This document shows positions 24,399 through 27,692 of a stretch of DNA of 31,620 nucleotides, piece after piece (position 1 is the stretch's first letter; every line of letters begins with the position of its first letter). The notes under the pieces are model-generated. The model did not search any database, was not told the DNA's origin, and saw only the letters and a list, made by a program, of their open reading frames with translations. Origin of the DNA: a virus; IMG/VR virus record IMGVR_UViG_3300044546_000352, positions 1 through 31,620 of that record; one strand, written 5' to 3'. Position numbers and translations under genes: made by a program.

Positions 24399-24750
24399 AG
24401 TTATCAATTTGCGTTTTTAAATTCTCATTCTGTTTCATCAAACTTAAATTAAGCCTTTCTAAGCGCTTATTTTTATCGAGTAATGTAATTATATCACTTG
24501 GCTTCATATCGTTTATTAGATACTCTCTTTTTGCCTTAGAATGAATTTTATCGATGTAATCTTTATACGATTGAATTCTCAAAGCCATATTTTCCCAATT
24601 ATTCTTTTTCGCCCCAGCTGATTTTTTCGCCATCATTTCGCATAGTGCTAAGTCAAAAGATAAATCAATCATGATCTCTTCCTTAAATAAATCATTGAGG
24701 CTATCTGTTTCTCTTTCCTCTGCTATCTTAGAACGGGAAAGGGTCTGCAT
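24376..24750 (-). CDS. helical hypothetical protein, replication block
   Basis: Frame open to an ATG at 24783; starts at 24783, 24750 and 24672 are all possible, and 24750 is a compromise that limits overlap with the helicase gene. The protein is almost all helix. The last third is a coiled coil (LLDKNKRLERLNLSLMKQNE) typical of oligomerising or regulator proteins. A region with KKSAGAKKNNWENMALRIQ is basic. Position after the helicase suggests a loader, adaptor or regulator of replication. Function unknown. Confidence 0.55.
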   Translation of the reverse strand: MQTLSRSKIAEERETDSLNDLFKEEIMIDLSFDLALCEMMAKKSAGAKKNNWENMALRIQSYKDYIDKIHSKAKREYLINDMKPSDIITLLDKNKRLERLNLSLMKQNENLKTQIDNYVAKFGL

Positions 24751-25708
24751 CTTTTTGAACGCTCTCAGTTTCAAATTTTTCATTTTTAGAATGGTTTAAA
24801 GTTGATAATGTTTGTTGTACCGGTGTGCCTTGTCCTGTTTCGTTGGCTATTGGGTTTCGTTCTCCCACTTCAAACCTCGTAAAGTTCCACATCTTAAAAA
24901 TCAAAGGTCTGTCTAATGGAGTAACTGAACCGCCAGTAATAGTTTCCTTCACCTTCCTTACGTGAATCTCTGTAAAGTTCTTACGTGCCTCGAATTGAGT
25001 CATCCGGTGAATGGTTATAAAGTCATCGCATCTGTTAGCAAACTTTTGCCCTCCCTCCGTATCACTTTTACTTGGTGGCATTTGATGACCTTCGTATTCG
25101 TGGTCTTTAGCGTACTTCTTACGGGCTGCCTCTGTTACCAAGTGAGCATTAACATACACGCTCTTTTTCTTCGTGTTGCAAAATACCCGAATCTCTCCGC
25201 AGGCTTCGTAATCTTCTTCGTGCTTATTGCCTCCACTACCTTTCAAACTATTCCAAGGGTCAATTAGTAAACACTTGCTATCGCTCTGCGCACTTATCGC
25301 CAATAGTTCTTTGATGTTGTAAATAATATCATTACGAATGAATTTAAAGTAATGATTCATTTCATCAAATGCTCTACGATATTCTAAATCACTTAACTTG
25401 TTCAATGGCTTACCAGTCATGAACTGCATTATATCGCGCTTCAATGATGCTATTGAATTTTCAGCAGAATAAATATCAAAGGTGATTTTGTGTTTAAGTG
25501 CCAGCACAACGAAGTACCACAGAATCCAAGTAGTCTTCCCCGTATTGTCTGCGCCATTCACCATTACGAACTGCCCTTGTTTATATCTCAAATGATTATC
25601 AGATAGTTCGTCTCCAATACCTAACCCTAACTTAACTCTGCCTTCTCGAATGTTATCGAGCATATCTATTGCCTCGCTTGGCTCACAGAAATAATTTTTA
25701 ACGCTCAT
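24728..25708 (-). CDS. RecA-fold replicative helicase (DnaB/Twinkle C-terminal type), 326 aa
   Basis: Walker A is GADNTGKTT (52-60), preceded by GQFVMVN. An SAE motif (81-83) supplies the catalytic Glu candidate, and Walker B is KCLLIDPWNSL (D150). NAHLVTEA holds a sensor-type His. The DnaB N-terminal domain is missing, as in many phage versions. The last residues DADPFPF resemble the acidic, Phe-ended tail of single-stranded DNA-binding proteins. It follows the initiator-like gene by two bases. Its role is unwinding the phage replication fork; a KaiC-like ATPase is the alternative. Confidence 0.8.
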   Translation of the reverse strand: MSVKNYFCEPSEAIDMLDNIREGRVKLGLGIGDELSDNHLRYKQGQFVMVNGADNTGKTTWILWYFVVLALKHKITFDIYSAENSIASLKRDIMQFMTGKPLNKLSDLEYRRAFDEMNHYFKFIRNDIIYNIKELLAISAQSDSKCLLIDPWNSLKGSGGNKHEEDYEACGEIRVFCNTKKKSVYVNAHLVTEAARKKYAKDHEYEGHQMPPSKSDTEGGQKFANRCDDFITIHRMTQFEARKNFTEIHVRKVKETITGGSVTPLDRPLIFKMWNFTRFEVGERNPIANETGQGTPVQQTLSTLNHSKNEKFETESVQKDADPFPF

Positions 25709-25710
25709 AT

Positions 25711-26520
25711 TTATTTTTTTATACGTTTAGCCATTCCTTCATTAGTTCTTACCCAGCCATCGTTTAATAGTTCTTGTATAGCTTCCTTATCATTCGGTGT
25801 TGGCTTCAAATGAAAATCTATACCCCATTCACCTTGCAATAAATCAGCATATTTATTTTCGACTTTCTTGGGCTGATGTGTTGAAAGCCATCTAAAAAAA
25901 TGCTTACTCATTTTATCCATTGCTAATTCATTCAATTCTTTTTCGTGGTATTTTTCCGACATCAGGAAATTTAAAAAGGATTCTTTTAGGTTGTTTAAGG
26001 AAGTTGAGTAACTTGTAATTGCTCTGTCAACTCCCCAGTCGTCCGAAAAAACATATTTACCTAATTCAATAATTTTTTCAGAAAATTTATTTTCGTTATA
26101 GTCTTCTCTTTTCTTATCTTCTCTTATTGCCTTTTGATTCGCTTTCGTTTCGGTTAGCGAATTATAACCGATTGGGTTATTTTCGGTTTTAGTTTGGGTT
26201 TTTGGCCTACCTCCTTTGCTTCCGTTGTCTTTATTTGTAATAGACTTTAACTTTCTGTCGCTTTTCTGCTCATCTAAAAAGTTAATTATAACTAAATCAT
26301 TTACTGTCTTAAGTATATCATTTTTAATTAGTAAATCAATTAATTCAACATCTTTTTTAAATCTCTTTTTAAGTTTAGATAGTTCCACAACACATTCATT
26401 ACTCCAATAGTAAGAGCAAATGTTTATAAATAAGCCTTGTGTTTCGTATTCTTCTAACGTAATATCTCCATCGCTCCATTCGGAGCAAAAGAATTTAAAA
26501 TATGGTAATGCTTTAGCCAT
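25711..26520 (-). CDS. replication initiator-like protein, 269 aa
   Basis: The N-terminal domain (1-90) starts MAKALPYFKFFCSEWSDGDI and continues YETQGLFINICSYYW, the winged-helix-type start common in Bacteroidota phage and plasmid replication proteins (DnaD/DUF4373-like in style). A basic Gly/Lys/Thr linker (about 95-115, NGSKGGRPKTQTK) joins it to a helical C-terminal domain (about 140-235). It lies directly before the helicase gene, as initiators or helicase loaders do. It is a poor match to any single family by eye. Confidence 0.65.
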   Translation of the reverse strand: MAKALPYFKFFCSEWSDGDITLEEYETQGLFINICSYYWSNECVVELSKLKKRFKKDVELIDLLIKNDILKTVNDLVIINFLDEQKSDRKLKSITNKDNGSKGGRPKTQTKTENNPIGYNSLTETKANQKAIREDKKREDYNENKFSEKIIELGKYVFSDDWGVDRAITSYSTSLNNLKESFLNFLMSEKYHEKELNELAMDKMSKHFFRWLSTHQPKKVENKYADLLQGEWGIDFHLKPTPNDKEAIQELLNDGWVRTNEGMAKRIKK

Positions 26521-26743
26521 TGTTCACCTCCTCATCTTCAATAAGATTAATGTTTGTTCTTATTGTTTTAGCGAATTTTATAGCTGTGCTTTTATCGAAG
26601 CATATAAACGCTTTTAATGGTTCAAAATAAGGAATGCTTAACTCCAAATAAATTTCGTTTTTGTCGTTTACATAACAAACAACTTCGTGTTCATCAGTTT
26701 GACTTTTTTCAGTACCGTAAAAGATTAATTTTGTTCGTGCCAT
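26513..26743 (-). CDS. hypothetical protein leading the replication operon, 76 aa
   Basis: The ATG at 26743 is preferred over a further upstream in-frame codon because the protein then starts MARTKLIFYGTEKSQTDEHE, with a beta-rich small fold and an acidic tail (EDEEVNNG). It overlaps the initiator gene by eight bases. It is the first gene behind the structured leader at 26794-26881, so any control by the leader acts on it first. Function unknown. Confidence 0.65.
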   Translation of the reverse strand: MARTKLIFYGTEKSQTDEHEVVCYVNDKNEIYLELSIPYFEPLKAFICFDKSTAIKFAKTIRTNINLIEDEEVNNG

Positions 26744-26756
26744 AATAATAGAGGTT

Positions 26757-26822
26757 TTAAAAACCAATAAACTTTAATATAAACCTCCTCAGGAACTGGC
26801 GGTGAGGTGGTCGAATACCCAT
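26757..26822 (-). CDS. possible 21-aa leader peptide in the replication leader
   Basis: ATG at 26822, TAA at 26757, 13 bases before the start of the 76-aa gene. The peptide begins MGIRPPHRQFLRRF and is very basic, with an RPP motif that can slow ribosomes. The frame runs through the 3' helix strands of the structured leader, so its translation would disturb them. Could be chance; a similar ORF exists in the HNH leader. Confidence 0.3.
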   Translation of the reverse strand: MGIRPPHRQFLRRFILKFIGF

Positions 26823-26881
26823 ATACCAGTTGCCCGATTCGGTTGTTTTAATAATTTCTTAGTGATTTTCGACCTTTCACC
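26794..26881 (-). ncRNA. structured leader RNA of the replication operon
   Basis: The region is visibly richer in G and C than its surroundings. On the minus strand, GGTGA-AA-GGTCGAA (26881-26868) pairs with TTCGACC-ACC-TCACC (26815-26801): 12 base pairs with a small internal loop. From inside that loop AACTGG (26831-26826) pairs with CCAGTT (26799-26794) behind it, a pseudoknot with a 1-base junction. Rival helices exist: on the plus strand CCTCA 26787-26791 with TGAGG 26803-26807, and CGAAT 26812-26816 with ATTCG 26837-26841, which exclude the long stem. Such a set of exclusive helices is typical of regulatory leaders. Confidence 0.65.
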
Positions 26882-26892
26882 AAAGAGATACG

Positions 26893-26900
26893 CAAATATA
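26893..26900 (-). promoter_or_regulatory. candidate promoter -7 box of the replication operon
   Basis: Minus strand reads TATATTTG, a full match to TAnnTTTG, 12 bases before the first helix of the structured leader. No TTTG is found at the -33 distance, so activity may need an activator, or the match is chance. Its position at the head of the leader and behind the GIY-YIG gene favours a real promoter. Confidence 0.45.
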
Positions 26901-27004: not shown

Positions 27005-27658
27005 TTAATAAATACCTAATTTAATTTTAGATATTACTCTTTGAGATACGTTGTACTTTAATGCAATATCTTTTTGAAAAATTCCTTCTTTCAGCATTTT
27101 ATTGATTTCTAATAATTGCATATTATTTATTTTTTTTTGTTTTTCAGTTACCTTTGCTCTATGTTCTTTTGTTTGTTTTCTTCCAGTATTCGCTAAAATA
27201 GAAGCTTCTTTAAACTTAGGGTGCAAACCTCTTTTTTTAGCCGACTCACTCATTTTTAATATTGTTTCTTTTGAGTACTTTCTGCCTAAAGAGTTTTGTT
27301 TTCCTTTTCTTAATTTAGATAATTTTTCGGATTGTTCTTTCGTTATTTTTGCCCCTAAAGTACTTCCTGCTATTTTTGCTATATTGTAAAAAGGATTTAA
27401 ATTGTCTATATAAAACTGCTCTCTTTTTATTAAATTTTCTTTTTCACAAAATTCAACGCATTCAAAATATATGTTTTTAATACCATATTTATTTACAAAT
27501 CTTTGAAGTTTTGCGTTACAATGTTTGTTTTGTTTTAAATGCGTTAAATGCGTGTGTTTTCTATTATAAAGATTTATTGCTGAACCTATATAAACTCTAT
27601 TATTAATTTTTGTTTTAATAATATAAATTCCTGACTTATTTTTAAATGATATATCCAT
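27005..27658 (-). CDS. GIY-YIG homing-type endonuclease, 217 aa
   Basis: From the ATG at 27658, GIY is at 10-12 and YIG at 23-25, followed by NLYNRKHTH with the catalytic Arg R33 and the acidic residue in EKENLIKREQFYIDNLNPFYN. Behind it are NUMOD3-type motifs (RKGKQNSLGRKYSKETILKM and TGRKQTKEHRAK) and a C-terminal helix-turn-helix (KDIALKYNVSQRVISKIKL), the DNA-binding layout of free-standing homing endonucleases. The gene is clearly more A/T-rich in codon choice than its neighbours. It is probably a selfish insertion between the methyltransferase and the replication operon. Confidence 0.88.
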   Translation of the reverse strand: MDISFKNKSGIYIIKTKINNRVYIGSAINLYNRKHTHLTHLKQNKHCNAKLQRFVNKYGIKNIYFECVEFCEKENLIKREQFYIDNLNPFYNIAKIAGSTLGAKITKEQSEKLSKLRKGKQNSLGRKYSKETILKMSESAKKRGLHPKFKEASILANTGRKQTKEHRAKVTEKQKKINNMQLLEINKMLKEGIFQKDIALKYNVSQRVISKIKLGIY

Positions 27659-27692
27659 ATTGCAAATATACAAAATAATACTCTTAATCTAA

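Follow-up and report, generated by a model that had tools for sequence, protein, structure and literature searches.

A conserved kissing-hairpin RNA leader in front of replication operons in phages of Flavobacteriia

Does the segment in front of the replication operon of this virus act as a folded RNA and, if so, what would such an RNA control? The source is an IMG/VR virus record, all 31,620 bases of which were analyzed (the window), and the segment lies on the minus strand at positions 26900-26741. Sequence comparisons strongly support its assignment as the 5' leader of the replication operon, with a promoter first, then the hairpins P1 and P2 separated by an A-rich linker, and a small third hairpin (P3) ahead of the AUG. 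The parts of the leader and the genes behind it are as follows.

26893..26900, minus strand: putative promoter TATATTTG, matching by sequence the Bacteroidota -7 element TAnnTTTG
26857..26886, minus strand: P1, the 5'-terminal hairpin, TCTTTGGTGA (26886-26877) with TCACTAAGA (26865-26857), one bulged T
26868..26874, minus strand: A, GGTCGAA in the P1 loop, pairing with A' (sequence; covariation in relatives)
26877..26881, minus strand: GGTGA, an exchangeable segment that pairs in P1 or, extending A/A', with TCACC 26805-26801
26837..26856, minus strand: A-rich single-stranded linker from P1 to P2; consensus of relatives AAAAATATTATA, kept in extra copies before other genes
26826..26836, minus strand: B, the 5' arm of P2, CGGGcAACTGG
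26809..26815, minus strand: A', TTCGACC within P2, pairing with A
26801..26805, minus strand: TCACC, which pairs with GGTGA when the long stem is extended
26790..26799, minus strand: B', the 3' arm of P2, CCAGTTCCTG, not followed by a U-tract in the window subfamily
26753..26765, minus strand: P3, small hairpin GGTTTTTAAAACC, its end 9 nt upstream of the start codon; relatives have a covarying hairpin in front of their 70-aa gene
26513..26743, minus strand: 76-aa gene, the first of the operon; product predicted beta-beta-beta-beta-alpha, PUR/PC4/Whirly-like
25711..26520, minus strand: gene of a 269-aa protein, in the operon's initiator position; its PHROG has no assigned function
24728..25708, minus strand: gene of a 326-aa DnaB-like helicase; DNA primase/helicase PHROGs

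The -7 box TAnnTTTG of Flavobacterium occupies -12 to -5 (PMC6847099), and with this spacing the window transcript would start at about 26888, with P1 at +3. At the position of the 269-aa protein, relatives have a gene annotated as replication protein. Directly upstream of the leader lies a GIY-YIG/NUMOD3 homing endonuclease gene (27005-27673, minus strand), which recalls segG upstream of T4 gene 32 (PMC535899). A group I intron or an intron-borne endonuclease was considered and rejected, given the absence of an Rfam intron match and the presence of the leader without the GIY-YIG gene in relatives.

By folding energy alone, the window leader is not significant (nested-fold z = -1.46), and 20 of 60 shuffles equal or exceed it on a simple A-B-A'-B' score. 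The window sequence by itself leaves room for chance, which the comparison with relatives excludes. Homologues of the 76-aa protein, which have the motif DKSTAIKFAKTLRTEINKI in common, occur in phages of Flavobacterium, Cellulophaga and Olleya and in many IMG/VR contigs, and the regions upstream of their genes yielded some 70 different leaders of Flavobacteriia phages. Nearly all of these follow one plan: TAnnTTTG, P1 a few nucleotides on, the A-rich linker, P2 with an inside complementary to the P1 loop, P3 and ATG. The leader was found in 38 of 38 phage records, and the A-B-A'-B' score lies above all 60 dinucleotide shuffles in 58 of the 70 distinct leaders. In a MAFFT alignment of 23 relatives, built without structure, 96.6% of cells are paired, against 84.7% in shuffled and about 40% in slid controls, and 19 pairs are changed on both sides. 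The kissing helix A/A' is paired in 99.4% of cells, with both-side changes at 5 of its 7 pairs; the corresponding values are 99.2% and 6 of 11 for P2, and 97.1% and 3 of 6 for P1. An all-against-all search of column pairs returned the proposed pairs as the top covarying ones. Wobbles fit the sense strand only (GU in 41 cells, AC in one), which argues for selection on RNA and not on a DNA origin. The structured RNA leader before the replication operon that had been posited from the window alone is strongly supported by this covariation and by the sense-strand wobbles; comparative sequence analysis, which the initial annotation had listed among its checks, finds that relatives keep the pairing in sense RNA while the letters change.

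The window itself has the promoter, P1, the A-rich linker and P2, in the order A-B-A'-B' and with A located in the P1 loop. A covariance model of P1, P2 and P3 (A/A' left out), derived from relatives with no window sequence, has its sole site in the window genome at 26741-26900 on the minus strand (E 8.9e-5), and a separate descriptor puts the leader site first in the window. The L004-type leader, which belongs to the window's subfamily, is present on four contigs, one of them that of the nearest relative, L004. Compared with the L004-type leader, 10 pairs of A/A', its extension and P2 are changed on both sides, one G-U has become G-C and none is broken: two of these double changes fall in A/A', four in the five pairs of the extension (GGTGA/TCACC to GCGAC/GTCGC) and four in P2, where the G-U to G-C change also lies. 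P1 differs by one mismatch. Rfam covariance models gave no match above the gathering score in the window, none at the leader in an E-value search and none at the leader in 20 relatives, a description of the kissing-hairpin leader was not found in the open-access literature, and relatives of the 70-aa protein or the primase were not found in the bacterial genome contigs scanned. From these sequence comparisons, the kissing-hairpin leader is a genuine conserved RNA element that is apparently undescribed. Elsewhere, in Flavobacterium phage morran9-1, a ParB-like gene is immediately preceded by an Rfam DUF805b RNA (RF02914; L001 1534-1568, 52.1 bits), and a weaker match lies at L109 1096-1127.

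Several elements of the fold had been recognized from the window sequence alone. The 12-pair long-range stem is present and conserved, being composed of GGTGA 26881-26877 with TCACC 26805-26801 and GGTCGAA 26874-26868 with TTCGACC 26815-26809. The same is true of the pseudoknot (AACTGG 26831-26826 with CCAGTT 26799-26794), the 6-pair part of which is conserved and which CGGG/CCTG with a bulged C extends to 10 pairs. The GC-rich island corresponds to 26787-26841 and has 56% G+C versus 37% in the window, a value reached by 0.3% of 55-nt stretches. The two rival hairpins, CCTCA/TGAGG and CGAAT/ATTCG, exist in the letters (at 26841-26812 and 26807-26787) but are broken in L004. As to mutually exclusive helices, the pair named by the initial annotation is not the right one; in the window subfamily it is GGTGA that can join either P1 or the long stem. 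As a duplex, the extended A/A' stem (-15.8 kcal/mol) outweighs P1 (-7.2) and GGTGA is common to both, so the exclusive helices of this subfamily are real. The suspicion of kissing loops came near the truth, but the partners of the conserved kiss are the P1 loop and the inside of P2, not the two rival hairpins. The 5' hairpin P1 (26886-26877/26865-26857) and the start-codon hairpin P3 (26765-26753) had been missed.

The position of the element relative to the promoter and the sequence behind P2 bear on its possible function. In most relatives, P1 starts 3-7 nt after the TAnnTTTG box; counted from the presumed transcription start, it begins at about +1 to +3. In most phages, a U-tract follows P2, in the manner of an intrinsic terminator: T is enriched around the P2 end in most leaders (0.63-0.85 from -3 to +6, versus roughly 0.3-0.6 further on), an enrichment that is moderate and occurs in an AT-rich genome. 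Hits with a promoter, a U-tract and a score of at least 52 number 22 in real and 0 in shuffled genomes. The U-tract is absent after P2 in the window and in the L004-type leaders, and a terminator search at the window P2 found none; termination at P2 therefore cannot be the mechanism in the window. A leader peptide was rejected, since upstream ATGs are not conserved among relatives.

The element is not confined to replication operons headed by the 70-aa gene. Extra copies precede HNH/NUMOD4 and GIY-YIG homing endonuclease genes, a methyltransferase-like gene, and primase-like, helicase and initiator genes, with the P2 end tight before the start codon (8-27 nt from ATG). A scan with the linker revealed more leaders, in front of primase-like, helicase, DUF6291 and Lin1244-like genes, in records, several of them fragments, where the 70-aa protein was not found; 12 leader-bearing records, partly incomplete, show no protein of the 70-aa type. 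Usually there is one leader copy per phage record, as in the window, with two to three in several phages. Within one genome, the A of a given copy finds its partner solely in that copy's own A', so P1/P2 acts in cis. By sequence, P1/P2 is a module independent of the gene behind it, and P3 goes with the 70-aa gene.

Among the extra copies, those in front of NUMOD4/HNH and GIY-YIG homing endonucleases come with their own promoter and leader (L150 4418, L139 11594, L161 3972, L160 14661 on the minus strand, L155 317, and L261), and there the start codon lies 8-12 nt after P2. Structures that resemble P1/P2, have a longer linker and lack a gene of at least 40 aa close behind occur in two related phages (L163 4855 and L165 7455, both on the minus strand); they may represent a separate RNA. 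In addition, a small protein with the motif LHSFIGxLLHVQ heads replication operons: its gene lies behind the leader in L209 and L268 and upstream of the 70-aa gene in L005 (2402-2638).

The best reading of these comparisons, to which we would give about even chances, is that of a cis-acting leader RNA that controls the passage of RNA polymerase into early operons. Transcription would begin at about 26888, as suggested by the promoter match and published spacing, and P1 would fold at the 5' end on leaving the polymerase. Once the inside of P2 has emerged, the P1 loop (A) would pair with A' and the P2 arms would close, resulting in a loop-loop pseudoknot, a pairing backed by covariation; in the window subfamily, A/A' would extend to 12 pairs and displace part of P1. 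The fold would then set how frequently polymerase continues into the operon, whose mRNA is presumed to be early. In relatives with a U-tract, it could serve as an attenuator or anti-terminator. The loss of the U-tract in the window subfamily suggests that the fold there acts directly on polymerase, as does HK022 put RNA, which makes the enzyme resistant to pausing and terminators, or that control is exerted further downstream. Any trans-acting factor would most likely read the A-rich linker, and P3 would be distinct from the module, belonging with the first gene. It speaks against this reading that P2 and A/A' are spatially compatible, so that most relatives show no obvious on/off pair of terminator and anti-terminator. 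A more far-reaching proposal, that the promoter and kissing-hairpin cassette on replication operons and homing endonucleases of Flavobacteriia phages forms a new, self-contained phage RNA class that directly reprograms the RNA polymerase of Bacteroidota, a put analogue in a phylum whose promoter logic is its own, is rather unlikely.

The main rival is autogenous control, perhaps acting through P3: the 76-aa protein would bind the leader of its own mRNA (pseudoknot, linker and P3) and shut off the operon, as a translational operator. This is considered unlikely, even with a protein model in its favor. AlphaFold predicts a beta4-alpha structure (pLDDT 86.7) for which Foldseek gave weak results, and the best VIA-align match is PURA repeat III (Z 7.0, rmsd 1.8, 60 aligned), other rows including Borrelia BpuR (Z 6.4), a PC4 homolog (Z 5.7) and the phage T5 PC4 homolog (Z 4.5). 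Rows with Z of at least 5 are mostly nucleic-acid binders of the PUR, PC4 and Whirly types. All of them are nevertheless below Z 8, where a match may mean no more than a widespread arrangement, and one row, at 6.4, is KhtT, which does not bind nucleic acids; no sequence match was found for the protein. A PUR/PC4-like nucleic-acid-binding fold is thus a predicted one, to be taken as a lead. Precedents are available, as BpuR represses its own translation (PMC9112904) and, in T4, gp32 acts in this way at the 5' pseudoknot that forms the operator of gene 32 (PMC535899), and P3 stands beside the AUG and goes with the 76-aa/70-aa gene. P1/P2, however, is also found before many other genes, including in the 12 records mentioned above, and autoregulation as the sole function is rejected, the module being present with no 70-aa gene nearby.

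The gene-independence of the module and the location of P1 at the very start of the predicted transcript would suit a 5'-end stabilizer, in which a kiss-locked terminal hairpin protects early phage mRNAs from 5'-end-dependent decay. We regard this as quite improbable, since a plain 5' hairpin would be enough for the purpose, and the conserved linker and the U-tract after P2 are left unexplained. Still less probable is a terminated small RNA, according to which transcription mostly halts at P2 and a compact RNA of about 110 nt works in trans: most relatives do have a promoter in front and an end that resembles a terminator, but no long conserved sequence is available for target pairing, the window subfamily has no terminator, and the extra copies end so close to an ATG. 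The ligand-binding riboswitch suggested by the initial annotation is very unlikely. A pseudoknot, a location in the 5' UTR and, in the window subfamily, helices that partly exclude each other would fit it, yet helices and loops drift freely in sequence with no conserved pocket seen, the A-rich linker alone is conserved in its letters, the genes behind the leader share no common pathway, and Rfam offers no match. Least probable of all is that the repeats act as DNA, as part of the replication origin or as a protein operator. The origin was the second proposal of the initial annotation, and both the adjoining replication genes and the usual single copy per phage record agree with it; it is disfavored by the strand test (41 to 1), by a position locked to the promoter and by the copies before unrelated genes such as those of homing endonucleases and the methyltransferase-like protein.

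The leader adds a strongly covarying RNA, common in phages of Flavobacteriia and absent from Rfam. Relatives occur in cultured phage-host pairs, namely Flavobacterium phages of strains LMO6/LMO9, the Olleya phage Harreka_1 and Cellulophaga phages, which opens the control of replication entry by a phage RNA to direct tests in Bacteroidota, a phylum whose phages are little understood in their control of transcription. Compensatory-mutation tests would be simplified by the separable loop code, in which every copy pairs with itself alone.

Known systems resemble the leader in part. In the repZ leader pseudoknot of ColIb-P9, which likewise precedes a replication gene, a loop pairs with a remote part of the leader under the control of an antisense RNA; loop-to-distant-segment pairing is common to both, and antisense control is a feature of ColIb-P9, no antisense promoter having been noticed for the present leader. 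The T4/RB69 gene 32 operator likewise places a 5' pseudoknot before a replication gene whose product is, here possibly, a single-strand binder, and a GIY-YIG gene adjoins in both (PMC535899), but that pseudoknot is of about 28 nt and serves one gene, whereas the kissing-hairpin leader is of about 100 nt, promoter-linked and located before many genes. Leader-peptide attenuation has been inferred in flavobacteria (PMC9723704). Intrinsic-terminator attenuators, under the control of a leader peptide or a protein, share a terminator-like hairpin in the leader before an operon with most relatives; in contrast to them, no leader peptide is conserved, the P1 loop pairs inside the terminator hairpin, and the window has no U-tract. 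HK022 put RNA (putL/putR), as described in the available text of PMC9378689, lies at the start of early transcripts and consists of two stem-loops present in several genome copies that act in cis and independently of the gene. Although that text presents put with neither a loop-loop pseudoknot nor a terminator-like second hairpin, the hosts differ and the effect of the present leader on polymerase is one that we infer, the two are alike as structured RNAs with two stem-loops that stand at the start of (here presumably) early phage transcripts, in cis and whatever gene follows.
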